From Macrocystis pyrifera (lineage: Eukaryota > Sar > Phaeophyceae > Laminariales > Laminariaceae): DNA of 64,000 bases. Both the position numbers and the translations under genes were made by a program. The notes beneath the pieces are model-generated. The model was not told where the DNA came from. It ran no database searches and saw only the letters and a program-made list of their open reading frames with translations. The stretch is from NCBI GenBank assembly GCA_031763025.1, contig JASSKH010000007.1, positions 12,754,454 to 12,818,453 of the forward strand. Direction: 5' to 3'. Positions 1,760 through 57,859 of the stretch are shown piece by piece; the stretch's first letter is position 1; each line of letters opens with the position of its first letter.

Positions 1760-2380
1760 GGAAGCAGAAGAAGAGCTCAGCAGCACTAAATAGAAATCAA
1801 TCTGTGCCGTCATACACCAAAATATGTCAGGAGACATGTATGTCAAGCAAAGGCAAAACGTGCGCTGTCAAGGATGTAGGGCCGAGTGTTAGAGACTGAA
1901 ACCTAGTATTAATAGTGGTGTCGGTCAAGGCATGTCAAGGCCAAGTTGCTATGTGTCAAGAGGTGAAAATTCTGTCTCCTGACATGTTGCTTTGTCACAC
2001 ACAGCAAGGAAGAGCGGAGCAACGGCGTCATTTGATTGCTCGGATAGGCTCCGATATAGAGCAACCATCTACCGTGCAGCGCGGGTTTACCACCGTTCAG
2101 GGTGCTGCCTGCTGCCTGCTGTTGATGCTGTAGTTAGCTGGGGGTTAGCACGCCTTCTGCACTGACTGCTGGCTTAGATGTCTATTGCCGCAGTCGCACT
2201 GCTGTGTACAGCAGCATCAAGAGTACGTACGATCACAATATCGGGCACAACGTCAGAGAGAGAGATATGTGGTGTGTTGTTGGGGGGTGATCGATCTCAG
2301 GCTCAAATGAGACCAACTACTGTAGCTACAGCAGTACAGCGGAGACCAACGCGTATGTGGATTTGCCACACGCGCACGAC
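1760..2380. other. No gene seen
   Basis: Unique-looking sequence with short open frames only. No splice-bounded coding stretch, RNA gene or clear repeat was recognised. Confidence 0.5.
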
Positions 2381-2386
2381 GCTGCC

Positions 2387-2387
<1 letters not shown>

Positions 2388-2418
<31 letters not shown>
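2388..2418. repeat. (CTG)n microsatellite
   Basis: About ten CTG units in a row. Confidence 0.85.
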
Positions 2419-2422
<4 letters not shown>

Positions 2423-2820
2423 ACAGGGATGTAGCGTTGTAGGCAGCTGGGGGTAAGCACACTCTTCGCTCTGCTGCTGTATCGTCTGTTTATGCTGTGC
2501 TGTGTTCAGACGCAAAACAATGATAACCGGTACCAGGTACGTTAGTACGACACTCATGAGGGCAAAAAGATTACGACGTTTCACCGGCACGTACGTAAAA
2601 ATAAGGCCTCTCGTACTGAATGAAACCAGGGAAATCGTCTTATCCACTCCCGCCGGAAAAAAAGTTCGAGCGCCCGCCACGCGCTCCAGAGTGCACGGAT
2701 CGCGTCCGGACCTCGACCAATGTGTCCGGCCGGGCTTCCCGTGTCGACTATTCGCGTTTTGCCCAAAAGCGCTCGTACGAAGAGATATGCTCGAAAAAGT
2801 ATGACAATTTCACGATTATT

Positions 2821-3195
2821 ACTAATAATATGTGCGGGGTGGAGAACCTTTACTCCGCACATGGGGGATGGCTGCATTACGTAGTGTTTACGATAAAGCA
2901 CCCACGAGGCAGTCACGTAGTACCCGCTGCTGTCTCTGGACATGGCCACACCGGAAAATAAATTAACGCATTGAAGGTGTCATCCACGTGCAAGTCCGCC
3001 TCACAAGCGGTTCTCAGTATGATGCAGCTCGTCCGTCATGCGACTCGCCGATCACCTCACGGCGTTTCGCGCTTGGTGCACGCATTGTCTGCCTGGTCGG
3101 TAGAAAAGCCACGTACTCCGTCCCGGCATTGTACGGATGCGAGGGTCTATGGTCATACGACTACCGTACCACACTGGGCGATAAGATAACACACC
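2821..3195 (+). repeat. Repeat family A, copy 1
   Basis: It begins with a hairpin (GTGCGG...CCGCAC around ACCTTTACT) and runs through CCCACGAGGCAGT, TGGCCACACCGGAAA, CACGGCGTTTCGCGCTTGG and CCCGGCATTGTACGGATGCG to TATGGTCATACGACTACC. The same order of blocks is found at 12719-13075, 13226-13611 and, reversed, 41382-41830. It lies upstream of the visible kinase exons. Confidence 0.75.
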
Positions 3196-3415
3196 CCCTG
3201 CGACGATTTTCAGACTCGGTTTCCTCCAAAACATGGGGACCGCACACAACGAACATGGCGGCTTTGGAAATTTTCGCCGAGAAGTTGCATAGACGCATCG
3301 CTGGTCGAACTCAGTACGCCCTCCCCGTTGCCGAGAAACCAAGCTTTGAAAATCGTTCGAGGGTGTGTGTTGTCTTGCGTGTTTGTACGGTACGACCATG
3401 CGTGATATCGAGTGC

Positions 3416-3416
<1 letters not shown>

Positions 3417-3447
<31 letters not shown>
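3417..3447. repeat. Poly(C) tract, 31 bases
   Basis: An uninterrupted C run just before the acceptor of the kinase exon at 3538. Length is likely to vary between reads. Confidence 0.9.
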
Positions 3448-3448
<1 letters not shown>

Positions 3449-3537
3449 CCTACGAGTAGGCGTTTAGATTTCCCACTCCCTCCCCCCGTCCACCCCCCCT
3501 CCCCCCTCCCCTTGTCGCTTGCCTCCCGGCGCGGCAG

Positions 3538-3687
3538 GTACAACGAGAAGACGGACGTTCACAGCTTCGCCGTCGTGACGTGGGAGCTGGTGACGGGCTG
3601 GCTGCCGTACTCGGGTCTCTCTTCCGACCAGTTCATGTTCCAGGCCGTGCAGGTGGAGCACCGCCCTCGTCCCCAAAACCAACCCTT

Positions 3688-3722
<35 letters not shown>

Positions 3723-4331
3723 ACACGCCTCCGCTGGTTGTATCCCTTGTACTGGTGCATTGTACAGAAACCCAGATATGACTCTGATTCCAAGTGTTTT
3801 GTTCCTTCACAACGGGAGCGCAGTCCTAAAGAGGGTATAACTGGTGTATGATTCCGCTGGTGGGGGATAACGGTTTGGGGAGGGGAGTTGCAAGTATTAA
3901 CCTTGGCAAAAGGTTTTTGCTTGCTTTTGCCGGATTTTTTACCCGGCAGAGAAGAACGCCATGCAGACGAGCGACTTGCACGGCGGTTTTTTTTTTGCAG
4001 ACAGCTGGTCGGTTTTTGTGTTCGGTTGGGTTTGGTTCGATTCGTTTCGATTCGTTTCGCCGGGGTTTGGAGCTTGGACTCGCCAATAATGACAAACGTT
4101 ATCTGAAGCCATCTCGGCACACCCGTGAAGTGAACCGGTGCCGTATATCTGGTGGAAGCGGGGAAAATGTTCTCCGCGCTGCCGTTTTTTTTTTCGATCG
4201 GAAACATGGGTGGCATGACTATTATCGTAGTTTGATATACTTGAGTTCTGTTTGCTTTTGATGCATGCTTTGGCTGCTCGACACCCCCTTCGTTAATGAC
4301 GACGGTCCCTTCCCCCCCCCATAAAACGGAG

Positions 4332-4363
<32 letters not shown>

Positions 4364-5462
4364 TGGCTCCCCCCTCCATGTTCTCGTTCTTATATCATAG
4401 GAGCTCTTCCTCGACGTCTCTCGTCTTTACACCCCCCGCTCCGCCTCACGCCAGGTATTAATTGTCGTCCATTTTGTTTTCGGACTTTTTTTCATGTTTG
4501 TCCGGTCGCCGCCGCCGCCGCCGCACATGTGATGTGTCCATAGCATGGTCAGCGGCCGCTGATGCAGTTCGGGTGGGATTCTTCCTTCAAGAGCCTTCTA
4601 TCCTCGTGCTGGGCCGAAGATCCACGGGAGCGACCAAGCTTCTGCCATATACACGTGAGCTACTTGCTGTAGTACAGTAGTGGCCCCTCTTATACAGGCA
4701 GTGCCGGCATGCGCCAGCCGTATACACGTGGGTCACTTGTAGTATAGTGCTGTAGTAGTCCCTCTATAGTGCTCCTCTAGTACTGCCGGTATGCAGTCCC
4801 TCTATTATGCGAAGTACATATATGTATGGACTGTGAAGGCAGCGGGATGCGGGAGAAGTGCGGGAGGTGGGGACACCTCAGGAGACTATTGAGGTTCTTA
4901 ATAGGCTATTGAAATTTTCAGTAGACTATTGAGGCTCTCAGTAGAGTATTGACGTTCTCCAGTAGACTATTCAGGTTGTTCTGCTCTGAATGTGCGTGGC
5001 AACTACCTGGTATACCGTCGAAAGTTGTAAGCGTGGCAAAAGAATATTCGAAGAACCTTACACGGGCAACCATACGTTCCTATATCCAAAGCCACGTACC
5101 ACGTATGTACTCCAATGACAATACATCACAGGCATGAAGCCAATTAACCAGTTGACAACTGCCGCTTTCCAAAACAGGCAACCTTGGAGGTGTTCGGTGT
5201 CCCCTGTCCCCTGACGTACGTTTTTCTCATCATATAGCCGATTGACCGATCGCCGAACGCTTCTTCTTTTCTGTAGGAAACCTTGGAGGCATTGGTGGAA
5301 GAGAACGCCCCGCCGCCACCGCCACCGGCACCCGCCGCTCGAAGCAGTCCAAACGAACGCAAAGCTTCTTCGTCCACCGTGGGAGGCATCTTTTCGCGGC
5401 TGATGCCGGGGCGGGGGTCGAAGAGCAGTTCGGCGAAAGGAGCGTCGATACGTATGATATGA
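3538..5462 (+). CDS. Protein kinase, TKL-like; last three visible exons
   Basis: This is the C-lobe of a Ser/Thr (TKL-type) kinase with its tail. Exon 3538-3652 follows an AG acceptor and encodes YNEKTDVHSFAVVTWELVTG then LPYSGLSSDQFMFQAVQ (subdomains IX-X; the D-x-x-SF-x-V-x-x-WE pattern). Exon 4553-4654 (or starting at 4568) encodes FKSLLSSCWAEDPRERPSF, the subdomain XI signature with its invariant Arg, and ends CAC|GTGAGC. Exon 5277-5462 follows TTTTCTGTAG, opens ETLEALVEEN, then a Pro-rich run and a basic Ser-rich end, with stop TGA at 5460-5462. All phases agree. The donor after FQAVQ (CAG|GTGGAG) is the least sure: reading on through VEHRPRP also fits the family, but a 32-base C-run follows. 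The N-lobe and catalytic loop were not found, so they lie upstream of the window or in exons I missed. Confidence 0.8.
3690..3721. repeat. Poly(C) tract, 32 bases
   Basis: An uninterrupted C run directly downstream of the kinase exon. It may mask the true exon end. Confidence 0.9.
4332..4373. repeat. Poly(C) tract, 42 bases
   Basis: An uninterrupted C run inside the kinase intron. Confidence 0.9.
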
Positions 5463-6745
5463 CTCGTATATACGAATACGGATATACTTGTAGTCGTGTG
5501 GTGATAGTTCTTGCTGTGGTTTATGATGGTTTATTGGCAATTTGGTGGATAGGGTGTGTGACTGGTCGGTTGATTGATTTGATTGGTTTTTATTGTGGCC
5601 AATCACGACGATGATCCAAAGCAGTGACTGGACTGGCTCAGATGATGCCGACGAACACGATCATGATGAACCAAACCATGAGGAAATTGCATGGCCGTAA
5701 TTGTATGAGCATAGGAGCTTTCTTGAATGTGGCAGAGAATGCATTGATTGATCGATCGATGTTAGACATGTGAAGCTTCGCATCGGGACGGACGGACACA
5801 GCGGGGGTTGCGTTCCGTGTCGGACCACGCCCAGAAAAGACGTACGTGAGAGCGGGCGGAACAATATAGGAAATTCCCTCTCGTTTTTTTTCTGTCTTTT
5901 TTTTCCCCATTCTCGAGGGGAGTAGAGGGGTGTGGGTTTTAGTTTGTCGTGCTTCTCGCCTACGAACGGCATTTTTATTGTACGTTTTTCTTGTATTTTG
6001 TTGATGCAGGGAAGGGAAAGGCCGACCGCATGGGTTTTGGGTTGGTTGTCCCGTCGGGCTGGTAGCCCCCAACTGCTTCGTTACGTTGACACCTCGTGAC
6101 GCTTTGTAAACACCACTGCCGGTGGCGGAAAAGGTGGCAGCGCTAGTCGCGGCGGAAAGCGTGTAGCGTTAGCGGTGGCGGTGGTGGCAGCAGCGTACAG
6201 CAAGAGGGGAGACACCCCTCGCGGCGCGGCAGTACGATGTCTAGCCCCAGGCATGAGCTGCGGTTGTATTCGGGGGAAAAAAATAGTCTCGGTGTTACGT
6301 TTTGGGGATCGTTTTTTCTTGTCCACCGCGGTTTTTTGTCCCGATGTGGACCGAAACGCGGCTGTTGATAAACTGCGAGATTGCAAAAGGACACCACCCT
6401 GTGCGCGCTATTGTGGCGGTGTCAAGCGGGCACGAGAACGCCGACTGCGAACGGCGCCCCCGCCCTCCTCCCCTCACCCTTCCTCCCCCCTCTCTCGGCG
6501 TGCGTTACCATCGCCGCGCCAAGGGTTTTGAGTACACTGGGATTCACGGTTTATTGTCCGGGGTGTTTTTTGTCGTTCGTGGTTATTTATGCTTCTTTGT
6601 TGTACGTTCGTTGATGTACAGATGCGTCTTTTTTCCTTGTTGTTTTTTTCATGGGTTTAGCCACCGCTAGTTTCGTGTCCTTGTCAGCGGCATGCCTTCG
6701 GTCGTATATTTTTCTTTGCACTTTTTTATCTGTATGTTGGGTGAG
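5463..6745. other. Downstream of kinase; no supported gene
   Basis: It holds the presumed 3' UTR of the kinase. A good acceptor (TTTTGTTGATGCAG at about 6008) precedes a short open stretch, and 6100-6530 stays open on the plus strand with a Gly/Arg/Ala-rich translation, but no donor or known domain supports a gene. Coding potential here is unproven. Confidence 0.4.
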
Positions 6746-20499: not shown

Positions 20500-22205
20500 G
20501 TGTTTCATTTAGACCTTGAAACTTCGCACACACTTTCCGTACCCTCACGCCGAGGGGTGTATGGCGGGGGGTGTAAGTTTGTTTACTTATTCGCCAACTA
20601 TCTGGAGTCTTCAAATAATCCTGAATCTTGGGATTTCTTCAAGGCTTGTCATGGGCCGCTGGTCCAGGCCGAGCCGGACCGGGCCAAGATTTTTGAAAAT
20701 GCCATGGGCTGGACCGGGCCGGGCCAAGTTTTTTTGAATGTAATGGGCTGAGCCGGGCAGGGCCGTCAAAATTTGAAAAAATTGATGGGCCAGGCCGAGC
20801 CGTGGCCCTTGCTCTGAAAAAATGATGGCTGGGCCCGGTAGCGGCCCACGAAATGATAATTTGATAGACCGGGTCGGGCCGCGGCCCATGATCTAAAAAT
20901 TTGATCGGCCGGGCCGGGCCGTGGCCCATGAGACGTGGGTTTTTCATAGACCGCACCATCCGGCCGATGAGGCGGCCCACGTGTTTTAATGGGCCGGCCC
21001 GGGTCGCACCCCATAATATGTAATGTATTCCTACTACTAATATTACGACGTCCATCTCGCCCATCAGGAGACCCACGGGTTTTTGCTGGGCCGGCCCAGG
21101 CCGCGGCCCATGAGATGGGGTGTACTGATACTTGCTACTGCTTGTATAACGACGTCGGCCCTGCTCATGAGGCGACCCACGGGCTTTCACGGGACGAGAC
21201 AAAGGGCGGCATGTGTGTGTTGTCTTCACATTAAATCTTCCTTTCTACCCAGCTTCATCAGTACACCCAGTGTCCGTCCTGATTCCTTATCCTAGAGATA
21301 TACTAATTACGTGGTTACAGACTGTGAGAGAGAAAGACGTGTACACCGTGTACAAAAGCGAGTGGTAGAAAAGCGGTTTACTTTTGTAGCGCTGAGGAAT
21401 AGCACACTGTGGATGGGAGAAATAAGGTAAACGCGCACCAGCAGAAGCAGAGGCAGCAGGGGGTGATGGTCCTAAAGTTGGGACGGCAGCCATCGGACCC
21501 GGCCGTTGGTGGAACAGATTGGATGGTAGTGGGTAGTGGGTTTGTGTGGGCCAGAAGCAGCTGATCCACGGAATCTGAAAGGAGGTACGCAGAAAATAGA
21601 AGACAGAAAAAAGAAATCGCCAGCCTGAACCTTTCAGTACGGGACACAATACATGGGCCGGCCCGCGGACAGGCTCGTCAAATCTACGGACCGAAAAAAA
21701 ACGTCAGGCCGGCCCGTGTAGAACCCATGTTTCATGGATCTCGTTGACATTTCATGGGCCGGGCCGACAAAGTCGAAAAAGTCATCGGCCGGGCCGGGCC
21801 ACGCCGAAATACTCGGAAATGTTATGGGCCGGTTCGGGTCGGGCCGGACCGCGGCCCAGCTTTTACAACTTGGCCGGGCCGGGCCGCGGCCTATCAGATG
21901 ATCTTTTATTGGGCCGGGCCGGACCGGGCCACGGCCTATCAGATGATCATTTGATGGGTCGGGCCGGGCCGGGCCGCGGCACATCGTCTGAAAAAGTGGT
22001 GGGCCAGGCCGATGCCGGCCGACCCAGCCTGGCCCAACCCCGGGCCGGCCCACCAGCACCGGCCCACCAGCACCGGCCCATGAAAAGCCTTGGATTTCTT
22101 GGAGCAAAAATATGGCGAAAAAAAAAAAAGCTTGGACCCCCTCCGGGAATACCTCGGCACAATTGCACTGAAGGTGTGTGCGAATTTTCAAAGTGCAATT
22201 AGAAA
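20500..22205. mobile_element. Foldback-type element with GGGCCGGGCC sub-terminal repeats
   Basis: The two ends are inverted copies: the left end (TTGAAACTTCGCACACAC ... GCCGAGGGG ... GGGATTTCTTCAAGGCTTGT) matches the reverse complement of the right (TTGAAAATTCGCACACAC ... GCCGAGG ... GAAATCCAAGGCTTTTCATG). Inside each arm about ten copies of GGGCCGGGCCGCGGCCCATG-like sequence are spaced by A/T-rich bits such as AAATTTGAT or GATGATC. The centre (about 21190-21640) is unrelated and has no convincing coding frame. This is the structure of a non-autonomous foldback DNA transposon. Target-site duplication was not identified. Confidence 0.65.
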
Positions 22206-23479: not shown

Positions 23480-25816
23480 GCCGCCGAATGCCAAAGCCAA
23501 ACATAATTTCCGAGTCTGCGTCTGATTACGCCCGCTTATTGAAGCAAGTCCAAGGTCTTGATATTGGCGGGCAGTGGATGGACGTGCTTGCGCGGACAGG
23601 TTTACCATGAGCAAAGGTGAAACACCACACCACTGCGCTTGTATCTGAGCATTGTATGGACACGGATGGGTAGTGCATAAAATGGGCGAGCTTATGTGAA
23701 CAACACACTCCACGGTAGCACGATATATAATATCTACCATACCAGGCACAAATTAAAAACACACCTCGGACAACGTAACACTCGGATACCACTTATCTAC
23801 GTTATGAGGCCTAAAACAGGAACGTGGTAACGTACTAACATAGAGCCAGCACTGGAGGAGCGATCACGGTAACGCGTTAACACGGTGGTAACTGGAAAGC
23901 CACGAACGTGCACACGCCTTAACGTGATGCTGCTGCTCGGTCTCGTCCAGCTCTGGTACAACAACATTATGTTATGCCGTGATCAGTCCTTGAACTAACA
24001 CTGTAACACAGTGTTGGGCTTTGACAAAACATGTACGTTATTACTCTAACATGCCCAGATCAATATCCGCATATTTACTAACCCGACAACATAATGTTAC
24101 TGTCGACCCAGCGCTAGATATAACACACTAACATAGTGTTACCCTTAGGAGAAGTGTTACTCATAAAACCCTAACATGACGTTACCATGTTCGCCAGCAC
24201 TACTAACACATAACATTGTGTTACAGATAACACACTAACGTAACATAACGCAGTGACCAGCACTACTATAACACTGCGTTATCTGGACCGCTCATCTGAT
24301 TGCCTTAGACTCGGATAACGTAACACTTGACGTACGTTAGATACGTTACAGTCTTAGCCGGCCCATACGTAACAGTATGTTAGGATGTTAGCCTAAATGT
24401 GGAAGTCTCTGTAACATTATGTTACGGTGTTACCGTAAGTAAAGATCTGAAGGTAACATTCCGTTACCGCGTTACAATAAACGGGTCTGACATTATGTTA
24501 CTGAGTTACAGTTGGGGCCGAAGTCGTTGTAACGTAATGTTACTACGTTACCCTGTGGATCTTCCCGAGATATAACATGTGTTAACTGTGTTAGTGGTAA
24601 AGCGGCGTGTGGGAGTAACAGAACGTAGCCGTGTTATCCAATTTCGCCGACATCCCAGCAGAGGGTACCTACAAGTTCATACATAATAATATATATATAT
24701 ATATATATCCCCGGGGGGGGGGTAACATGGCATCCCCGGTGAAAAAAAACTCCATATTTAAAAATCCCAAAACAGGGGATACTTAGGAGGGATCCCCGCA
24801 CAAAAACGCCCCATTTCTTTCTGGAAACCCCGCCAGTACGTTATGCATTCATAACACAGTACGTTAACCATCTATAACGTATTATGCACACTCGCACGAA
24901 CGAGTTAACACGGCAAAAACATATCGTTGATGATAGATTGCGGGTGTACGTCAGCTGCTAACTTGTGTCACTACCTACATTGCATACGAGCTAACACATT
25001 AACATAATGCTAGAGTTTTACCGATCATATAAGTGTCGTTTGACGTATGTTTTGGTAGCAAGACTTCCGTTAACACCCTCACATAACGCTGCTGCGGCTG
25101 ATACGGTAACATAATGTTAACGTTGTATTGCCCATATGCACCATCCCTCTAACGTGTGTTACGATAGCCACTATTAATAGGACTTTCACTATCACACTAA
25201 CATAGTGTTATGTACGTGTTTATATGGTCGTGTACGTTATCTGTCTAGAGGGTGTTACGGTAGCAAGTGGGCATCCCGCTGACACACTAACATAACGCTA
25301 CTCGCTACGGGCTGATGTCGCTAACACGGCAACATAATGTTAACGTTCAATTGACCATGTACGTTATCCCTCCAACGTGTGTTACGATAGCCACCAGGAA
25401 TTCCGCTAACACGCTAACATAGTGCTACTCGGCATGGGCTGCATACCCTAACACCGTAACACACATATATATTGCGGTCAGTACGGGATCAAGGTAACGC
25501 TCTAACATAATGTTACGCGATCGCCCGCCTATATCATAACACACTTAACACTATGTTATCACAAAATCTAGAAATCAGTTAACGTAGTAACGAAATGTTA
25601 CGGTTTTTTTTTTTCCTGACGCCTAAACGTTAAGTGTTACATTGACTAAGGTGTGAAATATTAATATACATACATAATAATAGCACTACTATCACTATTT
25701 TTATTTATTTTTCAAGTTATTTATCGTCACTTTTAAATTACTTTTGCAGGAGATTTTACGCTCAGCGATCTTCTGGACAAGCCGTGGTCACAGGTGTCGT
25801 CCCTTCTTCCCCCCCG
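23480..25816 (+). CDS. Unknown protein, two internal exons
   Basis: Exon A ends at 23599 (CGGACAG|GTTTAC) and reads SDYARLLKQVQGLDIGG then QWMDVLART. Its start is uncertain because the frame is open further upstream. Exon B runs 25750-25816 after TTACTTTTGCAG and ends CCCCCG|GTGCGT; it reads DFTLSDLLDKPWSQVSSLLPP. Exon A ends one base into a codon and exon B supplies the other two (Gly), so the phases match across a 2.15 kb intron. Both look like amphipathic helical protein. I do not recognise the family. Exon B ends two bases into a codon; a well-bordered candidate at 30993-31052 could continue it. The intron is filled by the TAACATARTGTTA array. Confidence 0.5.
23825..25650. repeat. Array of TAACATARTGTTA palindromes
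   Basis: Thirty or more copies of a near-palindrome TAACATAATGTTA / TAACATAGTGTTAC, usually paired with a second TAACAC or CGTTAC 5-10 bases away, are separated by 25-50 bases of non-repeated sequence. In 23830-24300 and 24900-25640 the accessory TAACAC lies on the left of the palindrome; in about 24310-24620 it lies on the right. The middle (24690-24840) holds an (AT)n run and a G run with a CCCCGG-rich stretch. The array lies inside the intron between 23599 and 25750. No coding frame was seen. Confidence 0.75.
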
Positions 25817-25953
25817 GTGCGTGCCCTCACCTATATCGCGCATAGGATTCTGTCAAGTGTACGGTAGCCACTGCTCGTCGATTTTCATCTACTGTTGCTA
25901 ACTCACGCTCTCGCGCTTCCCGCTATTAAATCCATTTTTAAGCAAAAAAAAAA

Positions 25954-26068
25954 GTCCCTACAGTACTCACTCGTACGAGTATGCATTCCGTGAGACTCGA
26001 ACCCACGAAATTGATCCTACTGCTGTACAGTAGTAGGCACGCGGACCACCTACCAAGCCACCAGGGAC
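25954..26068 (-). ncRNA. tRNA-derived pol III unit (tRNA-like, possible SINE)
   Basis: On the minus strand: GTCCCTGGTGGCTTGGTAGG (A-box-like TGGCTTGGTAGG), a stem CCTACTACTGTACAGCAGTAGG where the anticodon arm would be, then GTGGGTTCGAGTCTCAC, a sound T arm with B-box GGTTCGAGTCT. An outer stem GTCCCT/AGGGAC closes the unit at 26068 and 25954, and a run of ten T follows (25944-25953), a pol III stop. The anticodon arm is too long for an ordinary tRNA and position 14 is not A, so this is more likely a tRNA-derived repeat than a working tRNA. Confidence 0.5.
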
Positions 26069-26069
26069 G

Positions 26070-27040
26070 CGTAGTCCTAAAACAGCTGAAAAAAACTCAG
26101 CTGTGAGCTCGAGAATTTTCTCAAAATGGAATATAGACGAGGCGTATTACGCAGCTTGCAAAGTTGAGTATCAACTATTTAATCAGTCGAACTCACAGCT
26201 GACGTATTTCAAAATTTATAAAATCTATTTTTTTTGCAACCTTGACGAACCTTGCCTTGATGTGATACTTCGATCGTGCGTGCTACGTACGTACGGGGTA
26301 TGTATAGGTTTTAGAGTAATACAAAAAACACGACAGTTTGTGTACGTAGTAATGAATTCGGTGTCTACCAGGTACGATAATAGCAATGGCTACGCGCGCG
26401 TACGTGCATACTTCGTCTTCTGTAGTTTTACTGCAGTACCTATTGCTATGCTGTAGAAGTTGTGGGTTATCAAATAAATTCATCGCCACAGCAGTGCAGT
26501 CTGTAGTCGTCGCAGGTCAGGTTCCAATAATTCTGAAGGTGCTATTATAATAGGAGTGGAATATTAATGTTGCCTCCGAGGAGGGAAAAATGCAAACGGC
26601 AGAAAAGTTGTGTACATATGCTGCTGCCGTAATACGTAATATGACAGATGTGTACGAGGTACATGCTGCGTAAGTGAGGTACATAACAAAAAAAAAACAC
26701 CAGCTGTGAGATGGGGGATTTCGTCTGAACTCATTTTCGTGAAAGTGATGCGTCCGTTCGTACGAGTATTACGGGGTATATATGACCTCATGAAGGGCAG
26801 GAATCTAAAAACTACGGGCTCGACGCTCGACGTTGTGAACGCAGTATGAATGCACACAGGAATTTAGAGCCGTGTGGTATGCGGTAATACACAATACGCG
26901 CGATCGAAGTATCACACACAGCTTGAGATTCGCCGAAATCCTCGATCTCACAGCAGTATATAACAACAGCAGTTGTTTTTTTTTATTTTCTACCGGTACG
27001 TAGATAATACTGATGTCACAATTATTGCCGTCCCACGGGC
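26070..27040. other. No gene seen; family D fragment
   Basis: A family D core is at 26148-26205 on the plus strand (GCAGCTTGCAAAGTTGAGTA ... TCGAACTCACAGCTGACGTA). The rest is A/T-rich, with scattered CAGCTGTGAG-like pieces near 26700 and 26920 and no supported exon. Confidence 0.5.
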
Positions 27041-56499: not shown

Positions 56500-57520
56500 A
56501 CTGCATGCTGCATCACTAAGAGGGGAACCACGCAGGCCCAAATTGCGAGGGAGCACGTGGGCTCATTTTCTCGAAAACACTGGACGCTCAGGCATACACT
56601 CGTAGAAGTTTTGAGAGGGGCCGATTCACCAAAGCCCTCCCAAGAATGAGGGGCGCATTTTTGCTCGCACGCGATGGATGCCGCACCAACCGAGAGCATG
56701 TGATCCAAAACATTTCGTCAAATGAAAGTCTGTGAGGAGCCAGTGTCAAGGAGCGCTTCACAACCTAAAGATGCGAGAGCGAACGCTCCGCTTTGAGTTC
56801 CAATTTTGGTTATAAAAGAGGCGTTCTCGAGGGTAAATGATGCCCCCGACGAGGCAGGGGCCGTGTTCTGACAGCGCGAGAGGGGGGTGACACTATTAAT
56901 AGGTGCTACAGTCTTAACCTCGGGACTGTGGTCAGCATGCGTGTCAGAAAAACAGATCGAAAACTCCAAGAAAGGACCTGGGCATGCGCGGGCTACGGCC
57001 AAAGGGCGGGGCGGCGCTGATGAGATCTCATTAGTTCCGTCAGGCGTGGGCGGAGTGAAAAATTGATAAGAGAAAGCGGGTTGTGCTAACCCGGCCTCAC
57101 TTGCGCGAAGGGTGTCGCGAGCGGCGGAAAGAGCTTTTCGTAGTATATTTTGTCCTCGCCACCGCGAAGGGTCTTGGGCCTTGGGGTCGTCTGCCCGGAG
57201 GCCGATGCCCCACACGGGGCCAAAAGGGTTGGCTTCAGCGAAAAAATTGGTGCCAGTGCTCAGTAGATGCTGCTTCACGGTCGGATTTTGCGTGAACTTG
57301 CCAAAGTGCCAGCAAGGACAGCGTCTTCCCGAACGCGCTCCCAGAGAACTCGGTCGAAACAATGTTTGCCTCGATCGATGTGTTTGTGCTCGTTTTGTGC
57401 TCGCGTGGGTCTGGCGAGGACATAGTCCGCTCCGCTGCGCCGTGGTCCTGAAAAAGGCGAGCCTTTTCAGCCATCTTATACTGCTTCGCGCAGGAACATG
57501 ACACATCGTCAACGATAAAT
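56500..57520 (-). pseudogene. Zinc-knuckle and aspartic protease remains
   Basis: CEALLDTGSSQTF carries the DTG active site of retroviral-type proteases, and VVPLLVMQHAVLLGRDSWM looks like the later flap/LLGRD part. CPCWHFGKFTQNPTVKQHLL upstream resembles a knuckle. Degraded. Confidence 0.65.
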
Positions 57521-57859
57521 GACGAGGGGGATCACTGCGAAAAATGGGAGGGGGGCTGCCAGCACAGTATCACCCCCTCCGTTAAATACTCGAGAGTAGG
57601 GTCAAAGACGGACGATGCCGAGTCGTCGGTGGCCGCAGTTGTGGTGTGTGTGGGTGGGGGAGTGTGCTTCTCTGAGAACACTGAGCCCCTGATGCGCGAA
57701 ACGAGTCTTTTTCCACGTTTACTGCTCGGTGTGTCCATTGCCCGTAGGCAAATAATCACCAGAATGTTCTCTTTCTGCGCCCAATGGCCTCTGTCCTAGG
57801 TCAAAGGGGGCAGGGGGTTCTGAGCCCGTTCTTCTCAACGAGAGCTGTGATTCTTCCGA

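Follow-up and report, generated by a model that had tools for sequence, protein, structure and literature searches.

The repeat array at the locus

The window analysed in this work is a stretch of 64,000 nucleotides from Macrocystis pyrifera (assembly GCA_031763025.1, contig JASSKH010000007.1, positions 12,754,454 to 12,818,453 of the forward strand). On its plus strand, at 23760-25655, lies an element of about 1.9 kb, a non-autonomous DNA transposon copy filled with short repeated units. An initial annotation, made from the letters of the window, had described an array of palindromes at 23825..25650. The array is indeed found there, but the element that contains it is slightly larger. Between 23700 and 25700, the motif TAAC-N4-TAAC-N5-GTTA matched at least 11 of its 12 fixed positions 17 times (11 forward, 6 reverse), or 16 times after dropping one overlapping mirror match. 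In contrast, no such match occurred on either strand of 61850 bp scanned outside the array, and 60 Markov-1 simulated sequences of the array contained 0.03 matches on average and one at most. The array is hence real, and the concern that its core might be no commoner than expected by chance is answered by the same simulations, in which the unit was far rarer. The shorter palindrome TAAC-N5-GTTA was found 13 times in 23700-25650, versus zero times in both 1-23600 and 25700-64000.

The repeated palindrome that had first been noted is present; however, it is the larger part of the actual unit, an asymmetric triple half-site of 21 bp. Each unit holds three TAAC/GTTA half-sites, two of which form the inverted pair, with the third placed in tandem. 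Most units of the window copy begin in register with a 42-bp grid, which corresponds to about four helical turns, and unit direction changes by block. The left block (23828-24289, plus strand) is mainly forward and on the 42-bp grid, with one weak reverse match inside it at 23962. It is followed by an internal TIR-like sequence, CTCGGATAACGTAACACTTGACGT, at 24310-24333 on the plus strand, which was seen as direct repeat D16 and in alignments and is weak by itself. The units at 24370-24636 are reversed (minus strand; spacing 42, 42, 34, 42, 43 and 43 bp), as the initial annotation had recognized. A short core of roughly 200 bp at 24640-24835 is almost free of units and contains a TA microsatellite and a C/G run. 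The right block (24992-25600, plus strand) is again forward and includes internal duplications. Left and right blocks are therefore oriented alike and not mirror-wise. The spacers had been described as non-repeated, and they are poorly conserved, local duplications such as 25088-25178 versus 25311-25401 (80% identity) excepted. The TIR-like sequence at 24310 and the reversed block behind it resemble an inverted right end, which weakly suggests an older, shorter element inside the present one.

Surroundings of the window copy

Inside the window copy there is no open reading frame of at least 90 amino acids. Pfam was searched with 181 ORFs of the window (10, plus 101 of 237 of at least 90 amino acids, plus 70 of 126 shorter plus-strand frames, 18.5-36 kb), and the only convincing matches were NADAR and RVT_1 (reverse transcriptase), one each. 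Three weak matches (E 0.025-0.042) among the 70 shorter ORFs were taken as chance. No gene was thus detected around the element by Pfam on these 181 ORFs, a search that domain-less short exons would escape. Downstream of the element, the stretch at 25748-26070, which follows an acceptor-like TTTTGCAG, is a dispersed repeat with relatives of about 72-76% at six of the array loci described below (L006, L007, L010, L023, L027 and L030). The array had been assigned to an intron. Because no gene was found nearby and the stretch after TTTTGCAG is a dispersed repeat, this setting is unproven.

By eye, the minus strand of the same repeat near the right end of the element has A and B boxes like those of a tRNA, and the repeat is in this respect SINE-like; ARAGORN found no tRNA in the window, 25748-26070 included. 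The NADAR domain is located at 56718-57569 (E 3e-15), and NADAR-bearing Gypsy elements are reported from Ectocarpus in the available text of PMC12477816. Degenerate GGCCGGGCC tandem repeats occupy 20667-21980.

Dispersed copies with common ends

Genome scans covered the source assembly (537376219 bp, 223 contigs). The exact core TAACATARTGTTA occurs 3698 times (1805 on the forward and 1893 on the reverse strand), compared with 22 occurrences (13 and 9) of a reversed control pattern, and among the first 100 matches listed the places are clustered and spread over many contigs. The exact 23-bp terminal inverted repeat (TIR) CACACCTCGGATAACGTAACACT was found 531 times (271 and 260), its control not once. 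When 28 array loci (L005-L032), which include amplified copies of one single insertion, were aligned to the window, the left end at 23759-23762 recurred in 19 of them, and 12 reached the right end at 25656-25666. The genome-wide core search that the initial annotation had proposed for telling a transposon array from a local expansion hence decides for the transposon, as the core recurs with shared outer ends.

In the window copy the left TIR (23760-23782, plus strand) has diverged from the consensus CACACCTCGGATAACGTAACACT, and the right TIR (25633-25655, minus strand) is its reverse complement. Alignment of both ends within the window scored 32, barely above shuffled sequences, which reached up to 30. 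We know these ends as TIRs because the genome copies show them and not from the window alone. A family consensus of 1909 bp was derived from 12 copies plus the window copy. Of these 13, the window copy is the most diverged, with 8.9% from the consensus as computed without its last 3 bp; the other copies differ by 1.6-8.2%.

Exact cores average 7.5 per copy over the 13 aligned copies, so that 3698 cores correspond to roughly 490 copies. A first look with the 89-bp left end gave 841 genome candidates, a rough figure. Of the 40 that were scored, 17 showed no difference along the entire 89 bp, which points to recent movement. Five loci (L005, L008, L009, L011 and L012) belong to a diverged subfamily with about 67-71% identity to the window; they lie on short contigs, seemingly within another large repeat. 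At two further loci, L045 and L046, the left flank resembles another TIR end (tcggataacgtaac), and in L046 another left end lies 556 bp further upstream. Either these copies inserted into another copy, or they became joined to one. One element copy (L023) is interrupted by a 4.6-kb insert with a 1249-aa open frame (2214-5963) that by eye resembles a LINE, with both an endonuclease and a reverse transcriptase.

Target-site duplications

We examined 24 exact-TIR pairs in loci from L013 on and in 20 stretches, mostly close TIR pairs, taken from the first 100 of the 531 exact TIR places. Nineteen of them were flanked by an 8-bp target-site duplication (TSD) with seven or eight matching letters. 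Flanks were identical in seven of these 19 pairs (L018, L019, L023, L029, L031, L041 and L051), which, as the flanks are shared, represent one insertion that was amplified with a larger repeat. The same insertion with common flanks also occurs in L024; its copies lie largely on contig C126 at about 2.9-3.2 Mb, and also on C127 and C138. In diverged copies inspected by eye, the duplication matched at 8/8 letters in L013, 7/8 in L027 and 6/8 in L014. Across 15 separate insertions with seven or eight letters duplicated, the target nAAnnTTn was preferred, with A at position 2 in 14, A at position 3 in 12, T at position 6 in 11 and T at position 7 in 12 of the 15.

Against the transposon reading stand those copies without a clear TSD. 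These are five of the 24 exact-TIR pairs (L034, L038, L042, and L045 and L046, which have common flanks), the diverged copies L015, L017 and L026 as judged by eye, and the window copy itself. In the latter, the 8-bp sites expected to be duplicated are ATTAAAAA on the left (23752-23759) and AAATATTA on the right (25656-25663); the two are unlike, and no duplication is recognizable. Nevertheless, dispersed copies have TIRs in common, the TSD has a fixed length and the window copy, which lacks ORFs of 90 amino acids or more, shows no transposase gene inside, which together define a non-autonomous cut-and-paste element. The array is thus one copy of a dispersed non-autonomous cut-and-paste DNA transposon with 23-bp inverted ends and an 8-bp TSD.

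Regularity and decay of the units

The family consensus holds 17 perfect units and, once overlaps are removed, 19 that match at least 11 of 12 positions. Forward units less than 600 bp apart keep to the grid, with 30 of 36 distances deviating by no more than 1 bp from a multiple of 42. Five reversed units are spaced by exactly 42 bp, and two isolated reverse matches, at consensus positions 203 and 413 (the second of them a mirror match), are displaced by 14 bp from the grid on which this block lies. The orientation of the blocks and the grid are seen again in other copies. Column information was calculated over 20 unit sites, one of them a mirror match. Half-site columns reached 1.2-2.1 bits, partly by construction, as the sites had been chosen by their half-sites. 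The linker columns at positions 12-16, which were not used in this choice, are also conserved (0.88-1.15 bits). Outer spacer columns were mostly near 0 and below 0.35 bits, with the exception of a G at -2 (0.87) and a G at -10 (0.42).

Compared with the window copy, half-sites differed less than spacers, both in L013-L032 (0.101 versus 0.131) and in L005-L012 (0.167 versus 0.246), a comparison that is biased since it was the window sequence by which the sites had been picked. In 15 other loci the difference was small, 0.117 for half-sites versus 0.129 for spacers, and half-sites were lower in 63 of 100 pairs. Inserted copies decay almost evenly, and their units hardly appear constrained. Any selection for the unit hence took place in the mobile lineage.

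What the units may bind

We consider it quite probable that the array of this non-autonomous transposon represents an expanded subterminal region with putative sites for a transposase or a partner protein. Binding of such a protein is the most likely role of the units, judged by their position, their spacing and the precedents. Multiple transposase sites have precedents in the BED domains of Hermes (PMC10368747) and the THAP domains of Galileo (PMC3688188), as described in the portions of these papers available to us. A transposase produced elsewhere, or a DNA-binding partner protein of such origin, could load on the units, where the observed 42-bp repeat would present successive protein assemblies on the same face of the DNA. 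The loaded protein may then bring the ends together before it cuts and pastes the element. The array, which fills the element, would have been built in the mobile lineage as units duplicated and their spacers then grew dissimilar, and copies, once inserted, undergo the even decay described above. Several observations speak against this reading. Half-sites diverge nearly as fast as spacers between copies, the left and right arrays run in the same direction instead of being mirrored, two isolated reverse matches are off the grid, and one of two folded stretches is more stable than all its shuffles. Moreover, the searches described below yielded neither an autonomous partner nor a transposase, so that transposase binding stays putative.

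We may even speculate, although we regard this extension as doubtful, that the element parasitizes its own transposition system. Its phased units, having multiplied to occupy nearly all of it, would capture transposase in a regular four-turn filament and so beat a gene-carrying partner, which might be a giant KDZ element or one of an undescribed superfamily, with the target nAAnnTTn.

Alternatively, the units could be sites for a host protein, for example of Myb type, and act as enhancer, insulator or silencing target, with transposition needing the TIRs only. The half-site TAAC resembles the Myb core, and the failure to find a transposase that goes with the sites would also fit. However, the TIR itself holds TAAC half-sites (CGGATAACGTAACACT), which ties the unit to end recognition, and block orientation and grid are maintained between copies. 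We therefore hold a host-protein function of the array to be unlikely.

For each core, the initial annotation had considered either a protein dimer site or an RNA hairpin. A dimer site fits the putative protein binding, whereas support for the hairpin is weak, and we find it very improbable that the units act as RNA, be it as transcribed hairpins or as a structured source of small RNA. The cores are palindromic, and 23759-24300 folds better than all of 100 shuffles (z = -3.6). This indicates some structure, yet inverted units alone can produce it. For 24300-24650 the folding was not significant (z = -1.4), with 8 of 100 shuffles doing equally well, and among 23 single cores 21 had a folding energy of -3.8 kcal/mol or weaker. 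Of the two stem pairs that vary, one was slightly above expectation (14 of 23 Watson-Crick versus 11.3), but the other was not (16 of 23 versus 16.8). Moreover, the tandem third half-site has no role in a hairpin, and with gathering scores as the threshold the window gave no Rfam match.

A satellite, or the local expansion of a minisatellite, to which the 42-bp periodicity and the local duplications might point, is refuted by copies that are dispersed over many contigs with shared ends and TSDs and by spacers that are poorly conserved while the unit stays fixed; the initial annotation had rightly set the array apart from a simple satellite.

Search for the mobilizing enzyme

No autonomous partner or transposase going with the sites emerged from searches for hAT, KDZ and MULE enzymes. 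Likewise, a scan of 73 ORFs, out of 142 of at least 70 amino acids from the inserts and flanks of 10 loci, gave no transposase domain; a weak ParE_like match among the 73 (E 0.006) was taken as chance. For hAT dimer domains, 150 matches were scored out of 317 candidates in the genome. The best 30 of these loci, with 1.5 kb on each side, had no TIR (best fit 16/23) and no array block; one of them, L058, had a lone unit matching 11/12 positions. For the 34 hAT matches on contigs C1-C189, the distance to a listed array or exact TIR was 10 kb or less in two cases, one outside the copy that starts at C189:3153045, the other 7.3 kb outside L035. The region C189:3149000-3155072 was considered as an autonomous copy and rejected, as it shows an ordinary left end at 3153045, 98% identical to the consensus, and the unrelated hAT gene lies outside.

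MULE transposases gave 94 matches in the genome. Nineteen are on C1-C189, two of them beyond the last listed TIR; the other 17 were compared with listed arrays and exact TIRs, and none came as close as 10 kb. Like the corresponding hAT test, this proximity measure would miss a partner that is longer than 10 kb or has altered ends. The KDZ domain PF18758 had zero matches in the genome and also in all 14 controls. Viral contigs, in a collection that may omit near relatives of the window, contained four single unit matches, taken as chance, and no TIR.

Comparison with known transposon superfamilies

Our leading but unproven guess for the mover is KDZ, because of the 8-bp TSD and the CA..TG ends. 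In the excerpts of PMC12730594, an 8-bp TSD like the one found here is given for Zisupton and a Dileera element, and CA..TG termini are given for Kyakuja. According to the same excerpts, however, Kyakuja has a 7-bp TSD and lacks TIRs, and the KDZ descriptions compared, as far as available, mention no subterminal arrays of such form. In the brown alga Ectocarpus, KDZ elements are abundant, with eight families, 6403 copies and elements of up to 30.3 kb; they make up 1.8% of the genome, compared with 0.05% for hAT, and 51 DNA families are listed as unclassified in the consulted sections of PMC12477816.

With hAT elements such as Ac/Ds and Hermes, the kelp element shares the 8-bp TSD. The hAT TIR starts by the rule YARNG and the hAT target is nTnnnnAn. 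In contrast, the TIR described here starts with CACAC, which does not fit this rule, and the target is nAAnnTTn. A further likeness concerns Hermes, where short repeated half-sites near the ends are bound by many transposase domains, as stated in the accessible part of PMC10368747.

Galileo of the P superfamily resembles the kelp element in that binding sites are repeated in its long ends (PMC3688188, in excerpt), and a TSD of about 8 bp is given for the superfamily in the available text of PMC3706591. Unlike the kelp element, in which none were seen, Galileo has long inverted repeats. CACTA/EnSpm had first been suggested by the CAC ends and AAA flanks and was ruled out by the 8-bp TSD, as these elements have a TSD of 3 bp. 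CACTA/EnSpm elements carry many short subterminal motifs. They also share CAC..GTG termini, as described in the excerpts of PMC12730594.

The array had initially been thought to match no known type of repeat. Our literature search, in the parts of the sources that it covered, likewise returned no description of this particular array, but DNA transposons with subterminal arrays of binding sites are already known. An odd palindrome array thus becomes open to tests of how many transposase sites one element can carry, and why, and searches for the missing autonomous partner can start from two precisely defined sequences, the unit and the TIR. Compared with the arrays known so far, the form described here is unusually regular, and it fills the element.
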